This document shows positions 18,644-35,544 of a stretch of 39,072 bases of DNA, piece by piece. Source of the DNA: a virus; IMG/VR virus record IMGVR_UViG_3300005583_000005, positions 1-39,072 of that record, one strand, 5' to 3'. Positions within the stretch are counted from its first letter, which is position 1. Every line of letters begins with the position of its first letter. Both the position numbers and the translations under genes were made by a program. The notes below the pieces were generated by a model that did no database searches, was not told where the DNA came from, and was given only the letters and a program-made list of their open reading frames with translations.

Positions 18644-19258
18644 CTATTTAGTAAAATCTTGAACATGAGTCCTAAAAGGAGGACCAGTGTAAGGGTCAAA
18701 TTTAGCAGCTACATTTAAGGCTTTTAAAGCTAAAGACTTAGCTTGAGAAACTGTTTGTATTTTTTTACCTGCAGTTAAAGCAGTAAGTGCACCTAATGCA
18801 TAGGTACTACCAGAACCTAAAGCATAGATTCCATTGCTGTCAGAAGACCAAGCGTAATCAGAATCTACTACATATACAGTTCCAGATATAACGGCTAAAA
18901 TAGTAGAGGCTTGTTCTGCAATGTGTTGTTTGTCTTCATTATTATCCGGAGAAGCATAGCCTTGTTTTTCAAAACAATCGCGTAAAGCAGGTATAAATTT
19001 AACAGTAAAAAATTGATCTAGTTTTTTACCTTTTAACCCAGGCGAAACAGGAGGAGGAACAAAAGCATGATGCAATATGTTTATTGCTCTTACGTCGCCG
19101 GCTGCGCCCAATAGATACTTACCGTTTACGGCTACTTTACCGCTATTTTCTCCTAAAGTAGAAATTGTAGCAAATCCGTCTGATTCCATTGCTGAAATCC
19201 TAGAATCTACTGCTACTACCGCAAAACTGTCACCTTGTATTGCAACTATAGTTGTCAT
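18644..19258 (-). CDS. HslV/proteasome-beta-like Ntn-hydrolase protease subunit
   Basis: The ~204-residue protein starts MTTIVAIQGDSFAVVAVDSR, as HslV (MTTIV-) and proteasome beta subunits do. Removal of Met1 would expose the catalytic threonine. The other catalytic positions are visible: D18 (VDSR) and K41 (SGKVAVNGKY), then GAAG. IYALGSGSTYALGA is the later conserved GSG stretch. Such subunits form self-compartmentalised rings that degrade proteins fed in by AAA+ unfoldases. I chose the ATG at 19258, since AAGGAG lies seven bases upstream; a start seven codons earlier would bury the threonine. No hslU gene is in the window; the AAA ATPase at 28824-30452 is the nearest candidate partner. Confidence 0.85.
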   Translation of the reverse strand: MTTIVAIQGDSFAVVAVDSRISAMESDGFATISTLGENSGKVAVNGKYLLGAAGDVRAINILHHAFVPPPVSPGLKGKKLDQFFTVKFIPALRDCFEKQGYASPDNNEDKQHIAEQASTILAVISGTVYVVDSDYAWSSDSNGIYALGSGSTYALGALTALTAGKKIQTVSQAKSLALKALNVAAKFDPYTGPPFRTHVQDFTK

Positions 19259-19284
19259 AACATTTCTCCTTAGAACCAAAAAAC

Positions 19285-22826: not shown

Positions 22827-23075
22827 TTATTTATTATTATCATTTTCTGTTAAAACAGTTTGAAAATGATCTATTATATCTTGAAGGTATCTTAAAGATA
22901 TTTCTAGAGCTTTTACTGGGCCGTTAGAAACGGACAAAGTTTGAAATAAATTATTAAATAAATTAAAAATACCTGACTTTAAATCAGTAACTGTATCGGT
23001 ATGGACATACTCATTTATGGGATCTACAAGATCTGCATAGTTACTGTCATTATATTGGTTATTTTGGTCAGGCAT
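22827..23075 (-). CDS. Small hypothetical protein
   Basis: About 82 residues starting MPDQNNQYNDSNYADLVDP, mostly helical after that (LFNNLFQTLSVSNG, LEISLRYLQDIIDHF). I chose the ATG at 23075 because AAGGAG lies eight bases before it; a longer reading from 23105 overlaps the upstream gene more. No family recognised. Confidence 0.55.
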   Translation of the reverse strand: MPDQNNQYNDSNYADLVDPINEYVHTDTVTDLKSGIFNLFNNLFQTLSVSNGPVKALEISLRYLQDIIDHFQTVLTENDNNK

Positions 23076-23376
23076 TAGAATTTCTCCTTGATAAAACTTG
23101 ATCAATCATTTCAGATACAATCTTGGGGTCTTTATAACCTTTGTCATATAGAATTGAGATTATTGGTTTTGGATCTATATGATTATATGTTATCAGCTGT
23201 AAATTGAAAACATCGTTTAAAGAGTATATTCTATAATTATTTAAGTCTCTTTTAGATGGAGGGTATTTTTTGTTTTTTTCCCTGTTAGCAATTGTTAAAG
23301 TAGATACATTTAATATATTAGATACATCTAGTCTTGAAAAAGAAGGATGTTTATTAATTTTATTAAACTTTGTCAT
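23068..23376 (-). CDS. MerR-like helix-turn-helix protein
   Basis: A 102-residue protein with FSRLDVSNILNVSTLTIANR followed by RIYSLNDVFNLQLI, the arrangement of a MerR-type winged helix (HTH then R-x-Y-S-x2-D). It probably binds DNA as a dimer and regulates phage genes. It lacks the usual long MerR dimerisation helix and effector region. It is read from the promoter at 23412-23440, the start of the SSB/UDG block. Confidence 0.55.
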   Translation of the reverse strand: MTKFNKINKHPSFSRLDVSNILNVSTLTIANREKNKKYPPSKRDLNNYRIYSLNDVFNLQLITYNHIDPKPIISILYDKGYKDPKIVSEMIDQVLSRRNSNA

Positions 23377-23411: not shown

Positions 23412-23440
23412 ATAGTATCACACACACATGCTAAAATCAA
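23412..23440 (-). promoter_or_regulatory. Sigma70-like promoter of the SSB/UDG block
   Basis: Minus strand TTGATT (23440-23435), a 17-nt spacer and TACTAT (23417-23412). It lies between the E2-like gene at 23437 and the MerR-like gene, overlapping the end of the former. AAAGG precedes the ATG at 23376. Confidence 0.55.
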
Positions 23441-24690
23441 GATTGAATGTATTCGCCATTAGAATCTTTTTCTAAAGAAGTATATATATTTTGAGAATTT
23501 ATTTCTTTAAAAGCTATGTTTAAAGAAGGTATTGTTCTTTTAACAAGAATACCGTCAAGAGCTTGCAAAATATTAGTTAAAACTTGTTCAAAAGATTTAT
23601 GACAAAAACGAAGAGAATTTTTATATTCTTGAAAATATGCTTCCCAACCTTCGTCTGAATATTCGTCTTCATCACAACTTTCTACATACTCGTCGTGTAA
23701 TTCATTGCGATCTACGGAATCAGCGTCAGAGTATTTCGCAAAAGAAGGAGATGGAAACGGAGACATACAAACTTGATCAAGAGTAAGGTTTTTAACTATA
23801 CTACAATAAGAATACAAAAGATTATGTCTGCTATGCGTTAAACGCCTATTTACTGTATCGTTGTTTAATTGAATATAAACAGACAACAACTGCTGTGATT
23901 CAAATAGATTTAAAGAATCTTGAAGAATAGGATTTAAGTTTTTTTTAAAAGAATCTGTTGGACCAGCATCTACGTCTATTGAACGATTATTATTAAACAA
24001 TAAAAAATATTCGTTTAAAGTTTCATATAAATCTAAATTCCAACCACTATTCCAAATAGAATCATAAGCCGAAGCAATAACTCCAGAAATATCTTTTGAG
24101 TACTTATCAACATCATTCATATTAGGATAAAAAGGTCTACACAATTGTCCATTTCCAAAAAAGTTAGGAAGAACAGGAGCATAAACCGGTTCACCAAAAC
24201 CCATTTTAGAAATTGCATCGCGGCTATAAAACATATATGTATCTAATAAACAATAGTCATCATTAAATAAACATACGTAAATTTGCCAAGGTATTGGCAA
24301 GTAATAAGTATCGGGTTCATCATCGTTGCTTATAGAATCACGATCAGTTGAATGATGACTAATTAATTTATTAGTTGGAGGGTTTTCAAAGATCAAAATA
24401 TTTTTTCCTAAAGACACCAAACCAGGAGGGATCAAACCACTATCATTATATGTTTTAAATCCGATAATGCTGTCTATTGTTTTTTTATGTTCGCTAGATT
24501 CAAAATATAATGGTTGAGTTTGGCTACTGGTATACATAGAATTTTGCGTAAAACTAACGCAATCCAAAGAATTTGAACGACCCATATTTCCTACAAAAGT
24601 ACCCAAATTTAAAGCTTTTTGTTTTTCGCTATAATCAAAAAAGCTAAGACCAGAAAAGCAAGTAGCCATAATTTCAAAATCATTTATCAT
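23437..24690 (-). CDS. E2-like (UBC-fold) protein, first of two related neighbours
   Basis: The 417-residue protein has a central stretch (residues ~128-220) resembling Prok-E2 family D (PRTRC protein B) proteins: YYLPIPWQIYVCLF, then LPNFFGNGQLCRPF and NSGWNLD. The cysteine C184, after the NFFGNGQ turn, sits where the E2 active-site Cys would be. E2-like proteins pass an activated ubiquitin-like protein from E1 to a target. The next gene upstream in transcription encodes the same pattern (VPWTVYKM, FPNVFNGGLICFG, NGGWNTD). The long N-terminal and acidic C-terminal parts are unassigned. Assignment rests on short patterns and needs profile comparison. Confidence 0.5.
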   Translation of the reverse strand: MINDFEIMATCFSGLSFFDYSEKQKALNLGTFVGNMGRSNSLDCVSFTQNSMYTSSQTQPLYFESSEHKKTIDSIIGFKTYNDSGLIPPGLVSLGKNILIFENPPTNKLISHHSTDRDSISNDDEPDTYYLPIPWQIYVCLFNDDYCLLDTYMFYSRDAISKMGFGEPVYAPVLPNFFGNGQLCRPFYPNMNDVDKYSKDISGVIASAYDSIWNSGWNLDLYETLNEYFLLFNNNRSIDVDAGPTDSFKKNLNPILQDSLNLFESQQLLSVYIQLNNDTVNRRLTHSRHNLLYSYCSIVKNLTLDQVCMSPFPSPSFAKYSDADSVDRNELHDEYVESCDEDEYSDEGWEAYFQEYKNSLRFCHKSFEQVLTNILQALDGILVKRTIPSLNIAFKEINSQNIYTSLEKDSNGEYIQS

Positions 24691-24698
24691 AATTTTCC

Positions 24699-25919
24699 TT
24701 AAAAAGTATTGGTTAAAGTAGAAGGATTTTTAGAATCTTCGTGAGCAATAATATTGTTCAAAACTTGATATATGTCTTCTTGAAGAAGGTTATTTGAACA
24801 AAGGTATTGCTGACCGCTTATTGGATCTCGATCATAACGTAACGTTTTTATTTTTTGATTATAAGCATGATAGTTGGGTTTAACCATCATCTTACGAAAA
24901 TGCTCGTCTATTTCCGCTGAGTTATAACGAAAAAGACGATTTTCAAAATCTACATTAATTAAAGAAGATAAAGAAATTACTTGGCGTAAAATAAGAGGAT
25001 CAATGCAAGTTCTGTATAGATAAAGAAGTTCTTCTAATGAATACTTAGACCATATGTTTAAAGCGTTAAGATACATTGCAACGTGGCTATCTTTATGTTT
25101 AACCGGAGTACATTTTGCCATAGCATTAGAATACATTTCCAAAGCTGCAGGATCATTTAAAGCTTTTATGCGATCATAAGACTGAAATAGCATAAACATA
25201 GGAATATCAGAGCTACTAGGTAAAATATCGGTATTCCAACCACCGTTATAATAGTTCGAAATTAAATAATTAAATAATTCTTTATAAGAATAAGTATCGT
25301 CTTTAATGGAACTTTCTACAAAATAAGAATTGATTGTAGAATCAGAACCAAAGCATATTAGTCCACCATTAAAAACGTTTGGAAAAATACAAGAAAAAAC
25401 ATGATCATTTAACGAAGATATAGGAGAATCGTTAAAATGGATCGTTATAGCAAAAGTGCCTTGTTTATTAATCTGCATTTTATAAACAGTCCAAGGAACC
25501 CAAACGGTAATAGGTTCAATTTTTTTATTGCCTTTTTTGTTAACCTTAGAAGCTTTGACTGGAGTAAAATCTATAGTATAACGAAACGGAGGACGCTCTA
25601 CTAAAATAGAACCGTTTTCAGAAATAAACCTAGTAGCTGTTGGAAATATTTTCTTTAAAACTGAAAGATAATTGTTATCTAAAGATTTTAAAATAGAATT
25701 AGATTGTTGTATGGTTTCAAAGAAATCAAAAGCAGAATATTTAATATATTCAAATTCTATAGGTAAATCAGAACAAGTACTATATTTAGAAACTTTAATA
25801 ATATGAACTTCTTCGTTTTTTATTAATAAAGCAGAGTTGATAGAAGCCGGATTATCTTTTGTCTTATCTTCATCAACATAAAAATTAACTGGAAGTTTTG
25901 GATAAAGTTTATTAATCAT
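24699..25919 (-). CDS. E2-like (UBC-fold) protein, second of two related neighbours
   Basis: A 406-residue protein with VWVPWTVYKM (residues ~139-148), SCIFPNVFNGGLICFG (C189) and YYNGGWNTD. The PNV-(Y/F)-x2-G-x-(V/I)-C-x-G pattern is the usual signature around the catalytic Cys of PRTRC B/Prok-E2 family D. C189 is therefore the likely thioester site. It matches the neighbour at 23437-24690 in size and layout, indicating duplication followed by divergence. The C-terminal ~170 residues (helical, YLYRTCIDPLILRQVIS) have no known counterpart. It is 8 bases upstream of its paralogue. Confidence 0.55.
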   Translation of the reverse strand: MINKLYPKLPVNFYVDEDKTKDNPASINSALLIKNEEVHIIKVSKYSTCSDLPIEFEYIKYSAFDFFETIQQSNSILKSLDNNYLSVLKKIFPTATRFISENGSILVERPPFRYTIDFTPVKASKVNKKGNKKIEPITVWVPWTVYKMQINKQGTFAITIHFNDSPISSLNDHVFSCIFPNVFNGGLICFGSDSTINSYFVESSIKDDTYSYKELFNYLISNYYNGGWNTDILPSSSDIPMFMLFQSYDRIKALNDPAALEMYSNAMAKCTPVKHKDSHVAMYLNALNIWSKYSLEELLYLYRTCIDPLILRQVISLSSLINVDFENRLFRYNSAEIDEHFRKMMVKPNYHAYNQKIKTLRYDRDPISGQQYLCSNNLLQEDIYQVLNNIIAHEDSKNPSTLTNTF

Positions 25920-25933
25920 ATAAATAAGATTCC

Positions 25934-26842
25934 TTAAATTAAGCTTTTTAAATAGCTATTATTTGCGTCGATGTTTTTATCAGGGTAAGAATATTCAAGA
26001 ATAGAATTTGAATTTTCTGATATAAAATTATCAAAAACAATTATTGCTTCTTGATCATGCAATTGAAAATCTTCTGCTTGTATAGAGGTGTAGGTAAAAA
26101 CTAAAACAGTAGATTGCTTTGATTGTATACTATAAACTAAAGATCTATCTGAAAGATATTCTTTTTCAAGAGTATACAATATAGAATCTGTTTGATTTAT
26201 TTTGTCAATTATTAATTCAGTTTTTACTATTGTAACATTTTTTTCATAGCAAATGCATTGCGTTTGATTTGCAAAACCACAAGGTACAACAGAACCAGTG
26301 CTCATTTTAATGATAGTTTTGTTAGAACAATTATTGGCATATGTGTCATTAGCATACTGATATGTTTCAGAATATTGTTTATTTTGAGGATTACTAAAAG
26401 ATTTGCAAACAGAAAAAACAGCAATCTTTTTAACAAAATTAACAAGTAATTTAACATCTACAATATAAACATAATCGTTAGTATACTCATTATACAAAAA
26501 ATTTAAAACACTTAAAGTAAAACTAATTTTTTGTTTAGCTTGAACACTTTCAACAGAAATAGCTTTATTATAATGTTGAATAATATCTTTTGTAAGTGTA
26601 GAAAAATTATCTTCTTTTACTGAAGAAATTTGATATGAATATTCAGAGCTTAAATTATCATTATTGTAAAAAACATTTATTGGTTTTGTTTCATCAGAAT
26701 GATAATAGATATAAGCATAGCCAGAAGGAATGTCTATCTTAGACCCATTTTGTTTATTTGCTTGTTTGTAATCGCAAATATTAAAAATCCGATCTTTTTG
26801 CATATATTGAGTTGATTCATCAAGAGAAATTGTGTTATCCAT
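25934..26842 (-). CDS. Hypothetical protein in the Ubl locus
   Basis: A protein of 302 residues, strand-rich, with several cysteines in the middle (VVPCGFANQTQCICYE). No family recognised and no E2 active-site pattern was found. It lies between two genes on the same strand with gaps of 14-27 bases, so it is co-transcribed with the E2-like genes and may be a new component of the system. Confidence 0.55.
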   Translation of the reverse strand: MDNTISLDESTQYMQKDRIFNICDYKQANKQNGSKIDIPSGYAYIYYHSDETKPINVFYNNDNLSSEYSYQISSVKEDNFSTLTKDIIQHYNKAISVESVQAKQKISFTLSVLNFLYNEYTNDYVYIVDVKLLVNFVKKIAVFSVCKSFSNPQNKQYSETYQYANDTYANNCSNKTIIKMSTGSVVPCGFANQTQCICYEKNVTIVKTELIIDKINQTDSILYTLEKEYLSDRSLVYSIQSKQSTVLVFTYTSIQAEDFQLHDQEAIIVFDNFISENSNSILEYSYPDKNIDANNSYLKSLI

Positions 26843-26869: not shown

Positions 26870-27556
26870 TTAATTCCAGGTAACTTTATTGCTTTTAATA
26901 AGCTCTTCAGTTAAGAAAGTGAGTTGTTGTTTTAAAGTTTGGTTTTCTTCCAAAAGTTGTTCATTTTGTTGATGATAATAATCTAATTCTTTTATATAAG
27001 ATTTATATACTCTTTCGATAGCAGCAAGATTAGGAACAATTGCATTAATAGAGTAAAGCGATTTCCATTGATAAGAAAATATTTTATGTTCTTCAACAGT
27101 TAAGGGAATAGCCATAATTATTAAATAAGATTTACAATCTATTATTCTATTGAATATTGGAAGATCGTCTTTATTTAAAAAAATATTAAACAAAAAATTT
27201 TGTTCATATGGAGAATAGCCAGCAAGATACTTTGCTTTATACTCAAAAGCAGAATAAGGATAAATATAAGTTTTAATATAATTTGGTGATAAAACAGCTA
27301 AATTATTTTTAGACACTGTATTAGCAACAATAATACTTTGAAAGTACTGTTGCAATTCGTTACTAAAATAATTATTTCCGTAAGAAATTGGTTGTATATT
27401 TGGTGATGAATATATTGATTTAATAGAATCAAGATCGTTTGATCTAAGAGAAGTAATAGTACTTTCATTAACTTTTACAAGTTGATTATCTTCTACAATT
27501 GCATCAATGTGTTTTTTATTAAATTTACTTAAAGGTAATAACATTTGTAAAGGCAT
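26870..27556 (-). CDS. Hypothetical protein with C-terminal coiled coil
   Basis: A 228-residue protein. The C-terminal ~50 residues (YYHQQNEQLLEENQTLKQQLTFLTEELIKS) form a clear coiled coil, so it probably oligomerises or binds a partner. The N-terminal part has no recognised domain. Part of the same co-directional block as the E2-like genes. Confidence 0.55.
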   Translation of the reverse strand: MPLQMLLPLSKFNKKHIDAIVEDNQLVKVNESTITSLRSNDLDSIKSIYSSPNIQPISYGNNYFSNELQQYFQSIIVANTVSKNNLAVLSPNYIKTYIYPYSAFEYKAKYLAGYSPYEQNFLFNIFLNKDDLPIFNRIIDCKSYLIIMAIPLTVEEHKIFSYQWKSLYSINAIVPNLAAIERVYKSYIKELDYYHQQNEQLLEENQTLKQQLTFLTEELIKSNKVTWN

Positions 27557-27562
27557 GAGTTC

Positions 27563-27853
27563 CTAACTTAAGGATTGTTTTTCAAAGTGGCTAAAAGAAA
27601 TAGCATTATTTTTTAAATGATTAATTAAAGAATCATCAGAAATAAAAAACAAAGAAAATATATCTGAATTAACTTTTTGAGCTAATGGGTATATTTGATT
27701 AATGTAATACAAATTATTACATATGATTTTATGACTATTGTCATTTAAGAACAATATCGATATACCGTTAGTCGGTAAAGTTAGATAGCTGTTCGCTAGC
27801 CAAGCTTTCAATGGCTGACGAAATTCCTGGATCACTTGAGCCCAAGAGGTCAT
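27563..27853 (-). CDS. Hypothetical protein overlapping the upstream gene
   Basis: A 96-residue frame whose ATG follows AAGGAG at close distance, but it overlaps the preceding gene by 86 bases, which is long for this genome. A later start inside the frame (e.g. TTG near 27748) would avoid the overlap. The sequence after residue ~20 (GISILFLNDNSHKIIC) looks like real protein. No family recognised. Confidence 0.4.
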   Translation of the reverse strand: MTSWAQVIQEFRQPLKAWLANSYLTLPTNGISILFLNDNSHKIICNNLYYINQIYPLAQKVNSDIFSLFFISDDSLINHLKNNAISFSHFEKQSLS

Positions 27854-28187
27854 TAGCTCCTTCTTTCATTATTTCTAGCATTTGTTTGCGAGACTTGTTT
27901 ATAGTATCGTGAAATGCTTTTTTAGATTCTTCAGAAGAAAAAGCCATTTGGGCAATCAATGCATCCATAAAGACAGCTTGTTCACCAAAACCAATTACAA
28001 GTGTAGCAATTTGCTTTTCAAAATTTTCCAAGTACTTTTCAAACTCTTGCAATCTACCTTCTAAGGTAGACGCTAAAGTCATAAGAACTTGTTCTACTTG
28101 GTTTTTATAATCAATGTCTTGCACGTGCTTGTCAATTAAGTCTTCGTCAAGCGAGTAAGCATCGCCTAATTCTTCATATTCGGTCAT
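27768..28187 (-). CDS. Helical hypothetical protein
   Basis: 139 residues, almost entirely helical, with a long charged central helix (LEGRLQEFEKYLENFEKQIA) that may be a coiled coil. No family recognised. It is coupled to the upstream gene by ATGA and lies in the Ubl block just downstream of the AAA ATPase gene. Confidence 0.55.
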   Translation of the reverse strand: MTEYEELGDAYSLDEDLIDKHVQDIDYKNQVEQVLMTLASTLEGRLQEFEKYLENFEKQIATLVIGFGEQAVFMDALIAQMAFSSEESKKAFHDTINKSRKQMLEIMKEGANDLLGSSDPGISSAIESLASEQLSNFTD

Positions 28188-28810
28188 TGTTCATACCAAT
28201 CTGAGTTGTTTGCTACGTAAGCTGCTAAAGATAAATCTAAAAGATATGATATAGAACATATGTCTTGTCTTGTAACTTTAATAAAATCAACAGATATAGG
28301 TGATTTTAAATCTGGTATAAAAGCTCCACTCTCAGACTTGCGTGCTGCAAAATGACCGCATTTCCAAGCAAAAGAATTAGAATCAAAAGAATCACCATTT
28401 TGCCAATAATGGGACTTAAAGATTCTGCTGACAGGCTTACCATTAATCTCAGAACCACCGTAAGAAGAGAATCCTTCAGGAGAAGGAATGCCAGTTCTTT
28501 CATTGGCTGGATAATTAGTAACCGCAGTTCCGTTTGCTATTGACTTTAAATATGCTGCAAAATCAAAAGCATCGAGATAAACATTAGTAGAACTAATTAA
28601 CTTGCCTTCTGGAGCAGTTTTTCCAATATCAATTTTAAATTTCATTCCTTCAAACCAAGGCTTAATGGCTAAAAAACCACTGCTTGTTTTTGAACGAAAC
28701 CATTTTTTGTAAAGTTCAGTAGTAAACTGCTTTGGAGGAATTGGATTAAGCTCATCTGAGCCTTCTTGGTCAATTCCATTTAAAAATTCTTTTACATCAA
28801 AATTAGACAT
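28184..28810 (-). CDS. Hypothetical protein next to the AAA ATPase
   Basis: About 208 residues beginning MSNFDVKEFLNGIDQEGSDE. I chose the ATG at 28810 because a GGAG site precedes it; an upstream reading from 28900 would lie inside the AAA gene. The region FLAIKPWFEGMKFKIDIGK and a later WKCGHFAARKSESG are distinctive, but no family was recognised. Its position directly after the ATPase suggests an adaptor or substrate of that machine (inference). Confidence 0.55.
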   Translation of the reverse strand: MSNFDVKEFLNGIDQEGSDELNPIPPKQFTTELYKKWFRSKTSSGFLAIKPWFEGMKFKIDIGKTAPEGKLISSTNVYLDAFDFAAYLKSIANGTAVTNYPANERTGIPSPEGFSSYGGSEINGKPVSRIFKSHYWQNGDSFDSNSFAWKCGHFAARKSESGAFIPDLKSPISVDFIKVTRQDICSISYLLDLSLAAYVANNSDWYEQ

Positions 28811-28823
28811 TTGTTTTCTCCTA

Positions 28824-30452
28824 TTACCAATTTGATTTTTGAGGTGTGGATCTAACCATACTTCTAGAGGTATAATTTCCAGAAATAACTTTAGAAGCAT
28901 CTTCTAACTGAGAAGATGAAGCAAAATCCCACTGTTCAATTGCGGACTTATACAGTGATATAATAGCATCTCTGTTTTTATTCCAAAGTATGTTGCGCAT
29001 TTTCGGCGCTTTTATAAGTATATCATTAGTATTTAAAGTTCGCAATTCAGAAGAAACAACAAAGAAATTAGTTTCTTTAATCAAAGACTTTATTTCTGCT
29101 CCAGTAAATCCAGTAGTTGATTCAGCAAGAGCATCAAAATCCCAGTTATGATTAGTTTTAATATCAGAAAGATATATCTTTAATATTTCTTTACGCTCAA
29201 ACTGTGAGGGTAAACCAACAAATATTATTTTATCAAATCGTTCTGCTCTAAGCATTTCTGGTTTTAGGTTCTCAATCTGATTTGCTGCACAAATAAGAAA
29301 AACATTTTCAGGAAGTTCTTGAAGACCAGTTAAGAATTCACCATGAACTCTGTCAGTGGTGCCACCGTCTACATGAGAAGAGCTTTGACCACCTGACATA
29401 TCACGGCCAAATTCATCTATCCAAACACACAAAGGAGCCATAACTTTAATTTGTTTAAAAACAGCTCTCATGTTAGCTTCTGATTGTCCAACAAAAGAAT
29501 TCATAACTTGGGCAACTCCGGTTCTAGCTAAATCAAGACCTAATTCATGAGCAGTAGCTTCACAAATAGCAGATTTACCAGTGCCCGGAACTCCAACCAT
29601 TAGTATTCTTCTAATAGGTTGAACACCAAATTTCTTAGCTTCTTCTGGGTTATTCCACAACCATACATTTTTCTTGATAATATCTTTAGCATTATCTAAG
29701 CCACCAATATTATCAAATGTAATTTTAGGTTTAACAATTTCCAAAATTCCATTTTGTTTTATTTTAGACATTTTAGTGTCATAAATATATTTAGAAGATA
29801 TTTTTTTATTCTTAATAATAGATAGCAAACAAAGATTAATAAAAAGCGATTCAGATAAACCTAAAGCACTGCGCGCTATATCTTGTGCAGTTCCGTCTTC
29901 TACAAACAAATTATCACTTATAGTAGCAAAATGATTTAATATTTCTAGCATTTCTCCTATAGACAAAGGCTCAGAATCGTTAACGCTAAAGATAGAAGAA
30001 TATTCTTCTGGACAATCAAAACCTGTAATAAATATGTTCTGCATTGGCAGTAAAGTTAGATCATCTGCAAAGAAAGAATTTCTATAAGAATAATTAAACG
30101 AAGATATAACTGGGCCATATGCTTCAAGAAAGCTTTTTGGATCAGTATAAAAACTATGGATAAAAGCAATCGAAGACATGTTTTCGTTAGTTTTCTTTAA
30201 ATGCTGATAAGCAACTACGAAATCATATGTTGTATCTTGAGTAATGCTTCCATCTTCTGGATTAGGAAAATCTACCAATACTGGTTTCCACGTTTTTTCT
30301 ACTAATTTTGAAAAACCTAAATTTGGAATAATGCTATAAAAATTTCTAATTTTAGAATTAATTACAAAATCATTAATTCTATCAACGTCTTCTGTTTTAA
30401 TCCACAATAGTGGAGTTCCTAATTTAATTTGTTCAAGTATCATATTTTCCAT
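28824..30452 (-). CDS. AAA+ ATPase (classical AAA, CDC48/FtsH-like unfoldase domain)
   Basis: The 542-residue protein has one classical AAA module at residues ~245-460: FDNIGGLDNAK, Walker A GVPGTGKS (287-294), Walker B VWIDEF (D346, E347), sensor-1 N391 and the second region of homology with arginine fingers R402 and R405 (LRAERFDKIIF). The hydrophobic pore-loop position is not clear. The N-terminal ~240 residues are unassigned and probably bind substrate or adaptor. Such ATPases unfold proteins or remodel complexes. It lies between the Ubl gene and unknown genes, and could feed the HslV-like protease at 18644. A 9-bp hairpin sits just before its start, and no good ribosome-binding site is seen. 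Confidence 0.85.
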   Translation of the reverse strand: MENMILEQIKLGTPLLWIKTEDVDRINDFVINSKIRNFYSIIPNLGFSKLVEKTWKPVLVDFPNPEDGSITQDTTYDFVVAYQHLKKTNENMSSIAFIHSFYTDPKSFLEAYGPVISSFNYSYRNSFFADDLTLLPMQNIFITGFDCPEEYSSIFSVNDSEPLSIGEMLEILNHFATISDNLFVEDGTAQDIARSALGLSESLFINLCLLSIIKNKKISSKYIYDTKMSKIKQNGILEIVKPKITFDNIGGLDNAKDIIKKNVWLWNNPEEAKKFGVQPIRRILMVGVPGTGKSAICEATAHELGLDLARTGVAQVMNSFVGQSEANMRAVFKQIKVMAPLCVWIDEFGRDMSGGQSSSHVDGGTTDRVHGEFLTGLQELPENVFLICAANQIENLKPEMLRAERFDKIIFVGLPSQFERKEILKIYLSDIKTNHNWDFDALAESTTGFTGAEIKSLIKETNFFVVSSELRTLNTNDILIKAPKMRNILWNKNRDAIISLYKSAIEQWDFASSSQLEDASKVISGNYTSRSMVRSTPQKSNW

Positions 30453-30537: not shown

Positions 30538-30792
30538 TTAGAGACTACCTTTTTCGCCAGCACGACGGTGGAACTCAAGGTTGTCATTCTGTTGAACAAC
30601 ATAGTCTTCGTCCATCTTGTCTTTGCCTTTGTAGGCTGTAGCGTCAGAAGGAATTCCCCAAAGTTTAGAAAACTGTTCGCGAATTTCTTTGATGCTTCTT
30701 CCGGCAACAGGGCTTGCTTGTGAGTAAACGCCAAAACGAACGTTTGCTACACCCCCTGATGCATTTTCATTGTTGTTGCTATTGATTTGCAT
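30538..30792 (-). CDS. Ubiquitin-like (beta-grasp) protein, PRTRC C-like
   Basis: The 84-residue protein has a disordered Asn-rich N-terminus (first ~16 residues) and a beta-grasp-like body: VRFGVYSQASPVAGRSIKEI, then REQFSKLWGIPSD and DNLEFHRRAGEKG. The ending LEFHRRAGEKG closely resembles the C-terminus of PRTRC system protein C. After the likely conjugation Gly (G82) come two extra residues, SL, so processing by a protease such as the JAMM enzyme encoded two genes away may be needed to expose it. It lies directly between E1 and AAA genes. Good AAGGAG ribosome-binding site. Confidence 0.7.
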   Translation of the reverse strand: MQINSNNNENASGGVANVRFGVYSQASPVAGRSIKEIREQFSKLWGIPSDATAYKGKDKMDEDYVVQQNDNLEFHRRAGEKGSL

Positions 30793-30816: not shown

Positions 30817-31584
30817 TTATATATTTACATTAACTTTTACAGGTGAACGATCATATGGTTCAGATTTACCTACACCCAAGTCAAAGTATATCTCTGCTTC
30901 TGTAGGATTTTCTGAATTAACTATCGTTTTCTGTACGCGACCAAGTAAAAAGGCAGCAACTGCCATGTTTGTTGCAAGCAGCTGTGTTCCGCCTTCTATT
31001 TCTGATCTTTCTTGACAGGATAATTCTCCTGGGTTTTTATCTGGTGGATTCTCGTATTCAGGATGAAAGTTAACTGGGTGTTCAGTAACATCTTCTCCGT
31101 TCCTACGCTGATAATGATAAATGCTGCCAAACAAATCATCATCATTTCCGCCAGTAAAAATGTCTATATTTGCTATAGAAGTTGCTGCATCAAAGATAAT
31201 TTTTCTAGCAGCAAAGTTATCTACTACAGCAAAAACAACATCTCCTTCAGCAATTAAATCTGAAGCTTTAATTTTAGGAGAATCGCTGTCTGCAACTCCT
31301 TCATAGTTTTCTCCTACGATCCATTTTGGAACAGGAATAATAGTGGTATTATTAAATTGGACAGAAAGCTCATATGCTTTAACACTGGCCTTATTACCAA
31401 TTTTAGTAAAGTCTTGTCGCTCTTTGTTCTTTTCTTCATAAGTATCACCATCAACTATAATTAGTGCAGAACCAGGAAATTTCCATTCTAATAGCCGGAC
31501 TAAACCAGCAGCTAACCAAGTGCCAATTCCACCAGCACCGATAAGTATAAATCGATGTTGTTTTGTTTCATTTTGATCTGACAT
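30817..31584 (-). CDS. ThiF/E1-like Ubl-activating enzyme
   Basis: The 255-residue protein has the E1/ThiF Rossmann signature FILIGAGGIGTWLAAGLVR (G16, G18, G19, G21). It continues with LIIVDGDTYEEKNKERQDF (D45, N53, R56), matching the ATP-binding D-x-D-x-VE-x2-N-x2-RQ pattern, and later VDNFAARK. C190 in GELSCQERSE, before GGTQLLATN, is the likely thioester cysteine. E1 enzymes adenylate the Ubl C-terminus and take it on as a thioester. It is close to the ThiF protein of PRTRC cassettes. The downstream gene codes for the Ubl and the upstream genes for the JAMM and E2-like proteins, as expected for one pathway. Confidence 0.85.
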   Translation of the reverse strand: MSDQNETKQHRFILIGAGGIGTWLAAGLVRLLEWKFPGSALIIVDGDTYEEKNKERQDFTKIGNKASVKAYELSVQFNNTTIIPVPKWIVGENYEGVADSDSPKIKASDLIAEGDVVFAVVDNFAARKIIFDAATSIANIDIFTGGNDDDLFGSIYHYQRRNGEDVTEHPVNFHPEYENPPDKNPGELSCQERSEIEGGTQLLATNMAVAAFLLGRVQKTIVNSENPTEAEIYFDLGVGKSEPYDRSPVKVNVNI

Positions 31585-31603: not shown

Positions 31604-33301
31604 TTAATCTAAATATCTATCATTTTCGTAAGTGTAAGACGAAGAAGAATCATAAGCAAGATAATCTTTGCATGTGTCAAAGAAAGGGCTAGATGGATCT
31701 TCTCCCGTTTTTGCCCAATCAATTACTAAATTCCTATATGGAGCACATGTAGGAAGTAAATAATTTGCACAAGAAACGCATTGAGAGCTTTCTTCGTATA
31801 TGGCTAAATTAGGAAACTTAAGTTCAAAGTCATACATATCGTCAACAGTAACTGTTGGGTTGCAAGGGCAATCTTCAGCTATTGAATCTATATGAGTATT
31901 ACAACAAAGTGTGTACTCAGAATAAGAATTCCATGGGTTGTCAGACCATGCATTATTATCTAAATTTTTAGCATCGATTTGTTTTGCAATGCTTTCATCT
32001 GAAACTTTATCTCCATAAATATGGAGAAACATATATTCAGTATTGATATCTTTACACATGTAGTAAATATCAGTAAATGCAGGATATGTTTTATAAGTAT
32101 TGGTTTCATTAACTATTTCATGAGCATAGGTAACTAATTCAATAATTTCAGATACAGTATCACTAGGTGTTGCTATATAGTTTTGACATCCACCGCAAAC
32201 GCAATTTTGAAGATCAACATTTGATACTTCCCAATCACAAAGCGGACATTTAGGATCTATAGCTTTATCATCTACTTCTACAACGAGAACAGCTCCTTTA
32301 GGAATGTCAAGATCTGTAATTTTTTTAGTTGCCCCACCAGCTGTAGTCGTCTCCGTAATTTGAGAACTTGCTAGAGCCGGCTGAATTGGAAGCTGGTATT
32401 GCTGTGCCTTGGTAACCCCCGTAGCCGAATACGGGGGCAGTGCTTTTTTTGAGACATTGTGCGCCCATTCTATTACTTCAGGATCGGGATCTTTAATCTT
32501 TTTATCTAAATCAAAAACATCTTCAATGTTTAGTACAAATGCAGTTCCTGACATTTGCATTTCAGCATAGTATTGAGTCGCACCATTGTTAACTGTTTTC
32601 TGCCATCCATAAGTAATATGGATACCGTCAAAGTCTGATTGATCTTCATGATCTGTACCGGAAGCATAAGCTGCCATTCCAGGATGAGAGTGTACAGATC
32701 CAACAATAGAAAGATGATATGGCTTTAAAGCCACAATAGAATCTGGATCATACTTACAGTGAACTGAAGTGTTTTCTTGTTCTGGAACTAAAATTCCCCA
32801 AGAATCAGAAGAATCTGGATTAGCAGCATCAAACGTTAAGAGAACAATTGATTCAGTGCCAAGTTGAGCTTCCACCAATCTAAAGAATTCATCAAGTTTA
32901 TTGACAATAGTCATAGGAATTGGAGGAAGAGCATATATAGCTTCTGGTTCTAAGCCAACATAATTTCCGTCTAAAGAATCTTTAGAAAGAGAAATAGTTC
33001 TACCAATCATATTTTTAACAACTTTAAATATAACTGCTTCACGAGATTCTTCAGTATACTTAGTTGTTGTAGCAGGAACTTGAACACCGCCTGTCCAAGT
33101 TGCTGGTTTAGTTTGAGTAAATTCTTTAAAAGTAGATTTATCAGATATTAAATAATAAATATTAATACCTAGATTTTCTATAATCTCACAAATGTTTTCT
33201 TTGTTTCCAAGAAAACAAGGAGAACCATTTGGAAGCCAGAAATAATCTAAATCTTCTAAAGTATATGTTTTTTCTTCTGTTATTTCATTTTTTTTGGACA
33301 T
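31604..33301 (-). CDS. JAMM/JAB-domain protease fused to zinc-binding region
   Basis: The 565-residue protein carries a complete JAMM motif H204-S-H206-P ... S214-G-T-D217 (HxH-x7-S-x2-D), the zinc site of JAB isopeptidases such as Rpn11 and PRTRC protein A. The usual upstream Glu may be E150, but this is not certain. After the JAB domain comes a region with many cysteine pairs (CPLC, CVCGGC, CCN, CPCN, CVSC), suggesting two or more zinc ribbons. Such enzymes trim Ubl precursors or remove Ubl from targets. It is 19 bases upstream of the E1 gene. Prokaryotic JAB proteins are usually under 250 residues, so this one is notably long. Confidence 0.85.
   Translation of the reverse strand: MSKKNEITEEKTYTLEDLDYFWLPNGSPCFLGNKENICEIIENLGINIYYLISDKSTFKEFTQTKPATWTGGVQVPATTTKYTEESREAVIFKVVKNMIGRTISLSKDSLDGNYVGLEPEAIYALPPIPMTIVNKLDEFFRLVEAQLGTESIVLLTFDAANPDSSDSWGILVPEQENTSVHCKYDPDSIVALKPYHLSIVGSVHSHPGMAAYASGTDHEDQSDFDGIHITYGWQKTVNNGATQYYAEMQMSGTAFVLNIEDVFDLDKKIKDPDPEVIEWAHNVSKKALPPYSATGVTKAQQYQLPIQPALASSQITETTTAGGATKKITDLDIPKGAVLVVEVDDKAIDPKCPLCDWEVSNVDLQNCVCGGCQNYIATPSDTVSEIIELVTYAHEIVNETNTYKTYPAFTDIYYMCKDINTEYMFLHIYGDKVSDESIAKQIDAKNLDNNAWSDNPWNSYSEYTLCCNTHIDSIAEDCPCNPTVTVDDMYDFELKFPNLAIYEESSQCVSCANYLLPTCAPYRNLVIDWAKTGEDPSSPFFDTCKDYLAYDSSSSYTYENDRYLD
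32416..32437 (+). repeat. GC-rich hairpin with T-run inside the JAB gene (antisense terminator-like)
   Basis: CCCCCGTA (32416-32423), a 6-base loop and TACGGGGG (32430-32437) are followed after 6 bases by TTTTTTT on the plus strand. It has the form of an intrinsic terminator for transcripts running against the JAB gene. As mRNA of the JAB gene it would form the same stem. It might instead be a pausing or folding element. Confidence 0.6.
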
Positions 33302-33312
33302 AGTATCCTTCT

Positions 33313-35163
33313 TTATAATGTATTTTTTGGTATGTGATTAAGGTAATTTTGAGTTAGAGTAGAAAGCGATCCCATATTTTTAAGATCAAATTTACTAGGA
33401 TCGTATTCATAATTCATAGATTCTTGGTTAAAACATACGCATGAAGCGCAAGCATTCTGGCAAGAAACAAAACCGTTAAGGTTGTGTTGAATATCATAAT
33501 GCTTTGCAATTAAATTAAAAGCATCAAAGGGATTTTTAAGTGCCACCATTGTGTATGAATCTATATCTTTAAGAGATTCAGGAGAAGCAATTTGTTCGTA
33601 ACCAAAAACTTCAGCTGATCTTAAATTTCCACAAGGACAAACAGTTGATGATGATTGTTTGCCACAAGTTAAATGCATATGTGCATCAATAATTTCAGAA
33701 GTATCTGGATTAATGAAAGAAATAGATTCAACATAAGATTTATATTCTGGATTCATTGGAAGACTTTTACTGCATACAGCACAGTTTGCTTGAATAAGTT
33801 GATCAGCGTATTCAAAGCATTGTGTACATCTATCATATTCTGAAGTTTCAGAATTCAAAAATACCATAAAATTATTATTAAATTTTTTGTTATAATGAAC
33901 TTGACCACAACCCGTACAATGAGTTATATGTGGTCCATTAGCGTCAACCCACATGTCTATCTCTTCTAGGTACTGAGCATTTCCAGTTTGTAAATGAATA
34001 TCATGTCCACTGTTTTCACAGTAAACATATTGTTCAGAATAACAATCTTGGCAAAGAACGCCATCGTCAACAACCGTGTGGTTATCTTCGCTGTAGTTAT
34101 AATATTCTTCGCAAGATATACAAAAATATTGTTCATTTTCGTCATGATCATTACCATCATTATTATCACCATTACCATTAGGATTAGATGAAAGAGCGTG
34201 AGTATCACGAACTTTTTGAACATAAGTATATGGATCTAAATTCTCAGGCTTTTCTTGTTTTAATTTAGAAAGTTCATAAGATTTTTTAACTAAACTAAAT
34301 ACATAGTCTTCGTCAAATGTTTTATCTTTTCGAGCTATTTTATTTACTGGTTTAGTATGAGTTGTGTCCGAGTAATAAGCTTGGTAATCACCGGTCAAAG
34401 CCATGCCTAAAGTTAAAGGAACACCGTTTTCATAATGCTTGTCTTGGTGGTCTTGGTCTTGAACTAGAACTGGTATCCAAGTTCCTTCATTTAAGGTCCA
34501 CAAAAAGCCTTCTTTAGTAGTCTTTTCTTGCCATTCTGTTGGCGAAGTCAAATAAGCAGGTTTGTTATTCATGCGATAAAAGCGAGGACCATCTGTTTCG
34601 CTCATATTGCCATCATTGTAGGCTTCGTCGCCAGAACATCTTTCTATAAGTCTTGCAACTTTTTCCCCAAGGGGAATATTACTCCAATCAGAAGTATGGT
34701 ACAAGCACACCCAGCCAACTGCATTGCCTCTGTAACCTCTACAATTCATATTGGGAAGATTAGTATGATAAAGTTCTTGAGAAGGAGATGTTATAGGATT
34801 ATAAGAATAAAATATTCTAGCACCATAAAAATTACCGTCTAGTATATCTCCAATGTATATCTTGTAAGGTTGAGCCAAAAAATATGTTTGGACTCTTCCG
34901 CCTTCTGATTCTCCCCATAAAATTCTAGAAACAGCAGGCGCTGTTTGAACTACAATTTGTGCGTGATTACCTGCTTGCCGGTAAGCCAAAAGGCCAGTTC
35001 CGTCAAGAGGCAACAAGCCAGTATCAAAGTGAGCGTATTTTGAAAAGTTAGTGAAAAAAGATGAAAGATCTTTATCAGTAACATGATCAAGATTCATAGA
35101 TTTTACAGTGCTGCGAACTGCAACATATTTATCTTTATCTTGAATTAAAGAATATTCTATCAT
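33313..35163 (-). CDS. E2-like protein fused to a multi-zinc (RING/ribbon-like) region
   Basis: The 616-residue protein has an N-terminal part (~residues 45-200) matching Prok-E2 family D: VQTYFLAQPYKIYIG, LYHTNLPNMNCRG, GWVCLYHTSDW. C153 is the likely active-site Cys, with C141 a second candidate. After a linker, residues ~345-560 hold about nine CxxC pairs (CISCEEYY, CQDC, CTGCGQ, CTQC, CAVCSK, CPCG, ...), the pattern of treble-clef/RING-type or ribbon zinc fingers. An E2 fused to such a region could combine conjugating and ligase-like functions. It is the first gene of the E2-JAB-E1-Ubl-AAA order on this strand, 11 bases from the JAB gene. Confidence 0.65.
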   Translation of the reverse strand: MIEYSLIQDKDKYVAVRSTVKSMNLDHVTDKDLSSFFTNFSKYAHFDTGLLPLDGTGLLAYRQAGNHAQIVVQTAPAVSRILWGESEGGRVQTYFLAQPYKIYIGDILDGNFYGARIFYSYNPITSPSQELYHTNLPNMNCRGYRGNAVGWVCLYHTSDWSNIPLGEKVARLIERCSGDEAYNDGNMSETDGPRFYRMNNKPAYLTSPTEWQEKTTKEGFLWTLNEGTWIPVLVQDQDHQDKHYENGVPLTLGMALTGDYQAYYSDTTHTKPVNKIARKDKTFDEDYVFSLVKKSYELSKLKQEKPENLDPYTYVQKVRDTHALSSNPNGNGDNNDGNDHDENEQYFCISCEEYYNYSEDNHTVVDDGVLCQDCYSEQYVYCENSGHDIHLQTGNAQYLEEIDMWVDANGPHITHCTGCGQVHYNKKFNNNFMVFLNSETSEYDRCTQCFEYADQLIQANCAVCSKSLPMNPEYKSYVESISFINPDTSEIIDAHMHLTCGKQSSSTVCPCGNLRSAEVFGYEQIASPESLKDIDSYTMVALKNPFDAFNLIAKHYDIQHNLNGFVSCQNACASCVCFNQESMNYEYDPSKFDLKNMGSLSTLTQNYLNHIPKNTL

Positions 35164-35175
35164 TATTAATTTCTC

Positions 35176-35544
35176 CTATGACAATAAATTAGATATTGTA
35201 GAATCAATATCACCTTGAAAATCTCCAAAAGCAGAAGCAAACCAATTTGGTTCTTTTTCAGCTAATTCAATAACTTTAAGCTTTTGCACTAAAGCATCAT
35301 GATGTTCAATAATATCGGCAACTCTGTCTAATGCTTTAGCAAGTTTTTTTAACTCTTTACGAGAATGAGTAATACCTAAAATTGGTTTGATAATAGGTAT
35401 GTCGTCAATTGTAAAATGTTCGACAATACGGTCAATTCTTTCTGACAACATATCAACTTTTTCTGAAATATCTTTTTTAGCTTCTAAAGCAAGTTTTAAG
35501 GAAAAAGTAAAAGATGTCATATCTTTATCGTATTCTTCAGCCAT
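35176..35544 (-). CDS. Coiled-coil hypothetical protein
   Basis: 122 residues, largely helical with alternating charges (KKDISEKVDMLSERIDRIVEHF and KELKKLAKALDRVADIIEHH), indicating coiled coils. No family recognised. It lies 13 bases upstream of the E2-fusion gene, so it is probably expressed with the Ubl system. Confidence 0.55.
   Translation of the reverse strand: MAEEYDKDMTSFTFSLKLALEAKKDISEKVDMLSERIDRIVEHFTIDDIPIIKPILGITHSRKELKKLAKALDRVADIIEHHDALVQKLKVIELAEKEPNWFASAFGDFQGDIDSTISNLLS

Follow-up and report, generated by a model that had tools for sequence, protein, structure and literature searches.

The window analysed here, the whole of the 39,072-base viral record IMGVR_UViG_3300005583_000005, carries a block of genes that includes three E2-like proteins (E2a, E2b and E2c), a ubiquitin-like protein (Ubl), an E1-like protein, a JAB/JAMM peptidase and an AAA+ ATPase. 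All genes located individually below lie on the minus strand. E2a (417 residues; 23437–24690) contains a Prok-E2_D-like domain at approximately residues 84–224, with Asn176, Cys184 and the motif GWNLD at 216–220; its N-terminus is disordered and its C-terminal part (225–383) is helical, folded and variable. The neighbouring open reading frame (ORF), separated by 8 bases and on the same strand, encodes E2b (406 residues; 24699–25919), in which a Prok-E2_D-like domain (approximately 88–236, with Asn181, Cys189 and GWNTD at 227–231) lies between variable flanks. E2c (616 residues; 33313–35163) contains a divergent E2-like domain (approximately 44–178; Asn138 and Cys153), followed by a conserved middle part (187–278) and a C-terminal part with the Cys pairs 348/351, 371/374, 416/419, 446/449 and 461/464. 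Upstream of E2a and E2b on the same strand are p302, p228, p96, p139, p238, the AAA+ ATPase, Ubl, E1, JAB and E2c.

The initial annotation had described E2a and E2b as adjacent, related proteins of about 410 residues. This was borne out by direct BLASTP (E = 1e-4, 27% identity over 119 columns), by comparison of the family profiles in hhalign (E = 4e-22) and by three motifs present in both proteins: [IV]PW-x-[VI]Y (IPWQIY in E2a, VPWTVY in E2b), PN-x4-G-x-[LI]C (PNFFGNGQLC and PNVFNGGLIC) and GWN-x-D (GWNLD and GWNTD). When 3,449 ORFs (50 residues or longer) from the window and its relatives were screened for the strict pattern PN....G.[LIV]C, 35 had it, and all 35 were members of the E2a or E2b families; among the 117 ORFs of the window it occurred in E2a and E2b only. 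The same motif order had also been claimed for the 616-residue protein, and here the agreement was partial. BLASTP of E2c against E2a and E2b was not significant (E = 0.57 and 0.10, respectively), but the profiles matched (hhalign 8.5e-6 to E2a and 6e-4 to E2b), with C153 aligned with the cysteine of E2b. E2c reads AQPYKIY in place of the PW motif, its PN-to-Cys loop is longer by seven residues (N138 to C153) and GWN-x-D is absent. As controls, four neighbouring gene families were compared with the three E2 families and gave values of 0.08 to 0.8. The pairwise comparison of the three proteins joins E2a and E2b by both methods and E2c by profile only, and these profiles place E2c as a more distant third relative of the pair.

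Scans with E2b, E2a and E1 queries yielded 48 viral loci (L002–L049), across which the block is syntenic. All 46 loci spanning the E2 region, counting that of the window, have exactly two tandem E2 genes, with the order of E2a and E2b constant throughout; in many relatives the two ORFs overlap or sit a few bases apart. The 46 loci correspond to 33 records by contig name, many of them near-duplicates. Edge-truncated and identical sequences were removed before counting, giving 25 E2a and 26 E2b distinct complete sequences. In the E1-led scan, which involved no selection for E2s, the pair was found in 26 of 29 loci; two of the others (L038 and L047) stop short of it, while the third (L049) is distant, with an E1 that is 33% identical.

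Among Pfam families, the one matched by most members was PF14460 (Prok-E2_D), with matches for six of 25 E2b rows (best E = 7e-5) and five of 25 E2a rows (best E = 0.031); these counts used 25 of the 26 E2b rows and the 21 complete rows of 31 for E2c. The E2b of the window matched with E = 0.02 and 15 bits, and the best member reached 23 bits, the curated cut-off being 25 bits. A Stanieria plasmid, reached via E1, encodes an undoubted family D E2 (82.9 bits). Profiles of the viral families were compared with eleven plasmid E2s using hhalign, which gave 2.5e-10 for E2a, 7.5e-8 for E2b and 2.4e-4 for E2c, the alignments matching the Asn and the Cys; against the same plasmid E2s, five control families gave 0.27 to 0.68. 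The proposal that the stretch encodes three E2-like proteins in all is thus supported by hhalign, both among the families and to the plasmid E2s, and by these comparisons E2a and E2b are real, related proteins of the prokaryotic E2 family D type.

Structure prediction, which had been suggested as a check, favoured a UBC-like fold for E2a and was less clear for E2c. The E2a model has a mean predicted local distance difference test score (pLDDT) of 70.3, and 49 of the 50 entries listed in a structural comparison are E2/UBC-fold chains. The best of those listed is Ube2S (Z = 4.7, root-mean-square deviation 3.4 for 98 residues); a Z near 4.7 can reflect a common arrangement, and weight was put on the near-uniform list of E2/UBC-fold entries. 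For the E2c model the E2 entries scored Z = 2.3–3.0. Foldseek gave no match against the PDB at E = 0.001 for the E2a or E2c model, and searching the PDB sequences with the profiles of E2a, E2b and E2c gave nothing useful. A BFVD search with the E2a model gave four matches at E of at most 0.001, three of which are uncharacterised proteins of uncultured Caudovirales phages. Residues 337–505 of the E2c model gave weak matches to LIM, PHD and RING-type zinc domains (Z up to 3.8); together with the Cys pairs, these raise the possibility of an E2 with a built-in ligase-like part.

The candidate active-site cysteines named in the initial annotation are conserved in relatives: C184 in 25 of 25 E2a, C189 in 26 of 26 E2b and C153 in all 24 of the 31 E2c rows that reach it. 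The asparagines N176 (25/25 E2a) and N181 (26/26 E2b) are likewise invariant, and the Asn-to-Cys spacing is exactly 8, the classical E2 spacing, in 25/25 E2a and 25/26 E2b. In E2c, C141 and N138 are kept in the same 24 rows and the spacing is 15; the remaining seven rows lack the region, either because the locus is cut or because the ORF caller started late. This conservation stands out from mean column identities of only 26% (E2a family) and 22% (E2b family). Around GWN-x-D, residues W213, N214, G216, N218 and D220 of E2a and N229 and D231 of E2b are invariant. By eye, this motif seems to correspond to the N-x-D/H motif of the plasmid E2s; a downstream histidine near the active site of such E2s is described by Iyer et al. 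(2006; PMC1779556).

The E1-like ThiF adenylyltransferase (255 residues; 30817–31584) matched PF00899 (E = 5.8e-12), and its Cys190, in LSCQER, was kept in 14/14. Such E1s are similar to ThiF and MoeB. Against plasmid PRTRC-type E1s the hhalign value was 2e-25; the match to PRTRC_ThiF (E = 4e-7, 29.6 bits) was under the cut-off of 144.75. The JAB/JAMM peptidase (565 residues; 31604–33301; PF14464, E = 1.3e-4) contains H204-x-H206-x10-D217 and E150 and has a Cys-rich C-terminus; the JAMM residues are kept in at least 85% of 28 JAB rows, split and short ORFs included. It matched plasmid JABs with 1.8e-6 in hhalign and PRTRC_A with 13.8 bits (cut-off 101.8). Ubl (84 residues; 30538–30792) has the tail RRAGEKG-SL. 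In a set of 23 Ubls the chain stops exactly at the GEKG glycine in 19 cases, with two further residues in three (window, L002 and L012) and one in L049; plasmid Ubls have the tail G-x-K-G or similar, like the viral ones (by eye). The distant contig L049 carries, at positions 531–2749, genes for E1, for a second ThiF-like protein and for a Ubl whose N-terminal part is Rho_N-like, with no E2 in the available stretch; proteins resembling large RNA polymerase subunits were recognized on it by eye. The AAA+ ATPase (542 residues; 28824–30452; PF00004, E = 7.5e-25) is a member of the syntenic block. AAA homologues occur in 90 named phage records, with 29–38% identity among the rows listed and none covering 80% of the query, and E1, JAB, Ubl and E2 were not found by profile in the three phage AAA neighbourhoods examined (best value 0.27). 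Given these homologues and bare neighbourhoods, it is doubtful that the AAA is a part peculiar to the cassette. A shared C-terminal docking motif was not seen in the AAA proteins by eye.

Terminase matches were obtained in nine of 12 records, seven of them above the cut-off, and the records extend up to 268 kb; the carriers are therefore phages. Searches of 50,697 named phages by tblastn gave no match for E2b, E2c or E1, nor for a plasmid E2 query, and no relative was confirmed when genome contigs of bacteria and archaea were scanned twice, by short peptide patterns from alignments of E2a and of E1. Searches of the open PMC literature, which leave subscription papers and preprints outside, gave no report of a phage-encoded E1–E2–JAB–Ubl cassette; a survey of 224 jumbo phages (PMC7824862) gave no hit for E1-like, E2-like, JAB or Ub-like. 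In a tree of E2 cores, from which E2c rows with a core of fewer than 90 residues were dropped, single well supported branches were formed by E2a (96/97), E2c (100/100), the plasmid E2s (100/97) and 23 of 26 E2b (99/99). The three E2b of L006–L008 separate from the other E2b on a weak backbone; the deep order has support of 40/18 and long branches meet there. On this tree the paralogues are in all likelihood older than the spread of these phages.

PRTRC-type plasmid cassettes contained one E2 in 11 of the 11 loci examined, and 50 such places were found in 50 plasmid records, in agreement with the earlier statement that PRTRC systems normally hold one E2. Operon type 6d, as described by Iyer et al. 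(2006; PMC1779556), is presumably the PRTRC type. Such cassettes (for example that of Stanieria pSTA7437.01) have in common with the viral one a ThiF E1, a JAB, a family D E2 with LPN...G.IC and a small Ubl with a C-terminal glycine and a tail of the type G-x-K-G. They differ in having one E2 and residing on plasmids, whereas the viral cassette has three E2s and resides in large phages, with an AAA nearby and, in many records, a proteasome-like peptidase. PRTRC ParB was found in none of 11 viral records at E = 0.1 (the records may be fragments), protein D in none of 11 and protein E in none of 11, the control genomes giving no signal for protein E either. The PRTRC_C model missed Ubl in all 11 records, with two weak matches elsewhere, and the tail type is all that is common. 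Filing the cassette as a PRTRC system was accordingly rejected: under the NCBIfam definition, the absence of ParB and protein D, a Ubl that PRTRC_C does not recognise and the presence of three E2s speak against filing it there. Compared with Prok-E2_D (PF14460) and PRTRC protein B (TIGR03737), the viral E2s have the same active-site motif, domain order and downstream N-x-D/H (by eye), but fall under the curated cut-offs, are 277–591 residues long with long variable flanks and always have Asp as the downstream residue in E2a and E2b. The simplest account is that a phage lineage acquired, or came to share, a plasmid-type Ubl conjugation cassette and that the single E2 became three there.

The Bil and type II CBASS systems of bacteria, each with a single E2, serve host defence. 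They likewise combine E1, E2 and JAB, plus Ubl in Bil, and are used around phage infection; their genes are in the host, whereas here the genes are carried by a virus. In an Oscillatoria plasmid (L055), PRTRC-type E2–JAB–ThiF genes adjoin annotated CD-NTase and SAVED genes, beside a CBASS-like locus.

Rates of change were compared as the ratio of nonsynonymous to synonymous substitution (dN/dS), a simple pairwise estimate. Between the window and L002, dN/dS was 0.012 for Ubl, 0.017 for E1 and 0.011 for the E2c core, with identities of 99%, 98% and 100% (over 135 residues), respectively. For E2a it was 0.11 in the core and 0.42–0.44 in the flanks, and for E2b 0.17 and 0.23; core identities were 85% and 84%, and flank identities 57% and 68%. 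The flanks of E2a and E2b were also faster than the cores in four further pairs having a core/flank split, and in the pair L023–L025, for which whole genes only were compared, E2a and E2b were again among the fastest; in these five wider pairs dS often exceeded 1, so that the ratios are rough, and three were undefined. For 22 E2a sequences (without the L006–L008 lineage) the median pairwise identity was 12% over residues 1–83, 42% in the core and 15% over 225–383. In the model, 14 of 15 ten-residue blocks of E2a 231–380 have a pLDDT of at least 74, indicating that the C-terminal part is folded but fast-changing. The speed is not peculiar to E2s, as p302 and p228 are similarly fast. As judged from these rates, E2c is tied to the conserved Ubl–E1 core and E2a and E2b are variable arms, and a slow Ubl/E1/E2c core with fast E2a/E2b flanks would fit target-specific conjugases.

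On balance, we lean towards the reading that E2a and E2b are family D E2 enzymes which, with E2c, serve one phage Ubl and one E1, E2a and E2b being target-specialised. From the computed homology, invariant residues, synteny and rate differences, we infer catalysis, transfer order and targets as follows. E1 would adenylate the C-terminal glycine of Ubl after the last two residues (SL, here) had been trimmed, and would pass Ubl to the E2 cysteines C184, C189 and C153; N176, N181 and N138 would assist transfer onto target lysines. The JAB protease would both trim Ubl and remove it. E2c, with its near-frozen core and zinc-type C-terminus, may serve as the general conjugase and could include a ligase part of its own; E2a and E2b, with their fast flanks, may be conjugases that have specialised on particular targets of host or phage.

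Several points weigh against this reading. No member of E2a, E2b or E2c reaches the Pfam cut-off, and PF14460 matches none of 21 E2c. The structural match is weak, with a best Z of 4.7 and a best Foldseek E of 0.38 for E2a, and in the comparison of the E2c model the E2 rows (Z = 2.3–3.0) are few and stand among unrelated ones. The HPN histidine is absent from the listed E2a and E2b motifs (LPN, FPN and similar); the plasmid family D E2s are also without it. Weak constraint could also explain the fast flanks, and a tandem pair that is never apart is consistent with a heterodimer as well.

An obligate E2a–E2b pair of this kind (heterodimer or relay), in which Ubl passes from E1 to one protein and is positioned or accepted by the other, is possible, though we would not expect it. 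Ubc13–Uev1a in eukaryotes works as such a pair. E2a and E2b are adjacent and in the same order in all 46 loci, and they are probably co-translated because their ORFs overlap or nearly touch in many relatives. A UEV-type partner, however, has no cysteine, whereas E2a and E2b both retain Cys and Asn, and the flanks of both are highly variable in length and sequence. We prefer E2a and E2b acting in parallel on different targets. An arrangement in which they are Ubl-binding or scaffold parts and E2c carries all catalysis is unlikely: the slow joint evolution of Ubl, E1 and the E2c core, which E2a and E2b do not share, would suit it, but C184 and C189 are invariant in families of such low column identity and a scaffold would not need the cysteine. 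A sulfur-carrier or biosynthetic role for the cassette, with the E2-like proteins as relics, we consider very unlikely; the likeness of its E1 to ThiF and MoeB and the biosynthetic look of other window genes (by eye) point that way, but the JAMM peptidase, the intact Cys and Asn of all three E2-like proteins and the invariant Cys190 of E1 count against it. Chance similarity of motifs in proteins that are not E2-like, to which the weak Pfam and fold scores might be ascribed, is scarcely credible because the profile matches far exceed those of the controls, the active site is aligned and no other ORF contains the strict motif.

A proteasome-family (N-terminal nucleophile) peptidase is encoded at 18644–19279, approximately 4.2 kb downstream of E2a, with a likely start at 19258 (MTTIVAIQ...); it matched PF00227 with 33.8 bits (cut-off 22.4). 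In all fifteen distinct relatives the sequence from the likely start opens with MTTI, and T2, D18, R20 and K41 are retained (15/15); we take T2, D18 and K41, by their positions, to be the catalytic residues. The relevant PDB match is BPH (1.9e-4). The gene was found in 13 of 22 records (10/16 by Pfam, L012 by direct comparison and 2/11 by its own profile, five of these 11 having been negative previously), and its position downstream of E2a is conserved. No copy was detected in the records of L026, L027, L028, L030, L043, L006–L008 and L049. We rejected it as an obligate part of the cassette, as it is missing in nine of 22 records, four of which are 180–194 kb long; it is also present in Actinomycetia phage DSL-LC01, where no annotated Ubl cassette lies near it. 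Judged by its position in the viral records, it may belong to the Ubl system. The phage proteasome homologues PPH and AAH, likewise proteasome-family genes in phages, have no reported co-occurring AAA+ partner according to Fuchs et al. (2021; PMC8665760), whereas here the AAA+ gene of the shared block is approximately 9.5 kb away. One record (G005; 267,766 bases) has two proteasome-like genes, the first at 32.5 kb and the other at 251.9 kb, as well as a second E2_D-like stretch (241 kb), the doubling being either a duplicated cassette or a joined contig.

A virus-encoded pathway resembling the ubiquitin–proteasome system, in which the three E2s would tag selected proteins of host or phage with the phage Ubl, the AAA+ protein would unfold them, the proteasome-family peptidase would degrade them and the JAMM peptidase would recycle Ubl, is conceivable but rather doubtful. 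If true, the fast change of the E2a and E2b flanks would track shifting targets in an arms race with the host. The proteasome-family and AAA+ genes in the same stretch make tagged degradation by a phage concretely testable. A conserved viral three-E2 cassette would be a simple place to ask how E2s split targets before dedicated E3 ligases, and would show that bacterial viruses carry Ubl tagging of their own, beyond merely facing that of the host.

The remaining genes of the block are p302 (25934–26842), which is fast-evolving, has conserved Cys residues and is not E2-like; p228 (26870–27556), also fast-evolving and not E2-like; p96, p139 and p238 (27563–28900), conserved between p228 and the AAA gene; and p122 (35176–35544), a conserved gene upstream of E2c. 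As additional E2s, p302, p228, p238 and p139 were rejected (hhalign 0.08 to 0.8). The gene adjoining E2a, p102 (23068–23376), is of MerR-like helix–turn–helix type with a weak Pfam match only. In p302, beside E2b, C146, C172, C188 and C196 are conserved although the protein is fast-evolving, and it is possibly a zinc protein. p96 and p139 (27563–28187) overlap in different frames at 27768–27853, and the overlap is retained in relatives. Between 9827 and 16962, several 2-oxoglutarate–Fe(II) oxygenase-like proteins, one ketoacyl-synthase-like protein, one ferritin-like oxygenase-like protein and an acyl carrier protein were recognized by eye only, and on the same basis these genes resemble a small biosynthetic cluster in a phage.

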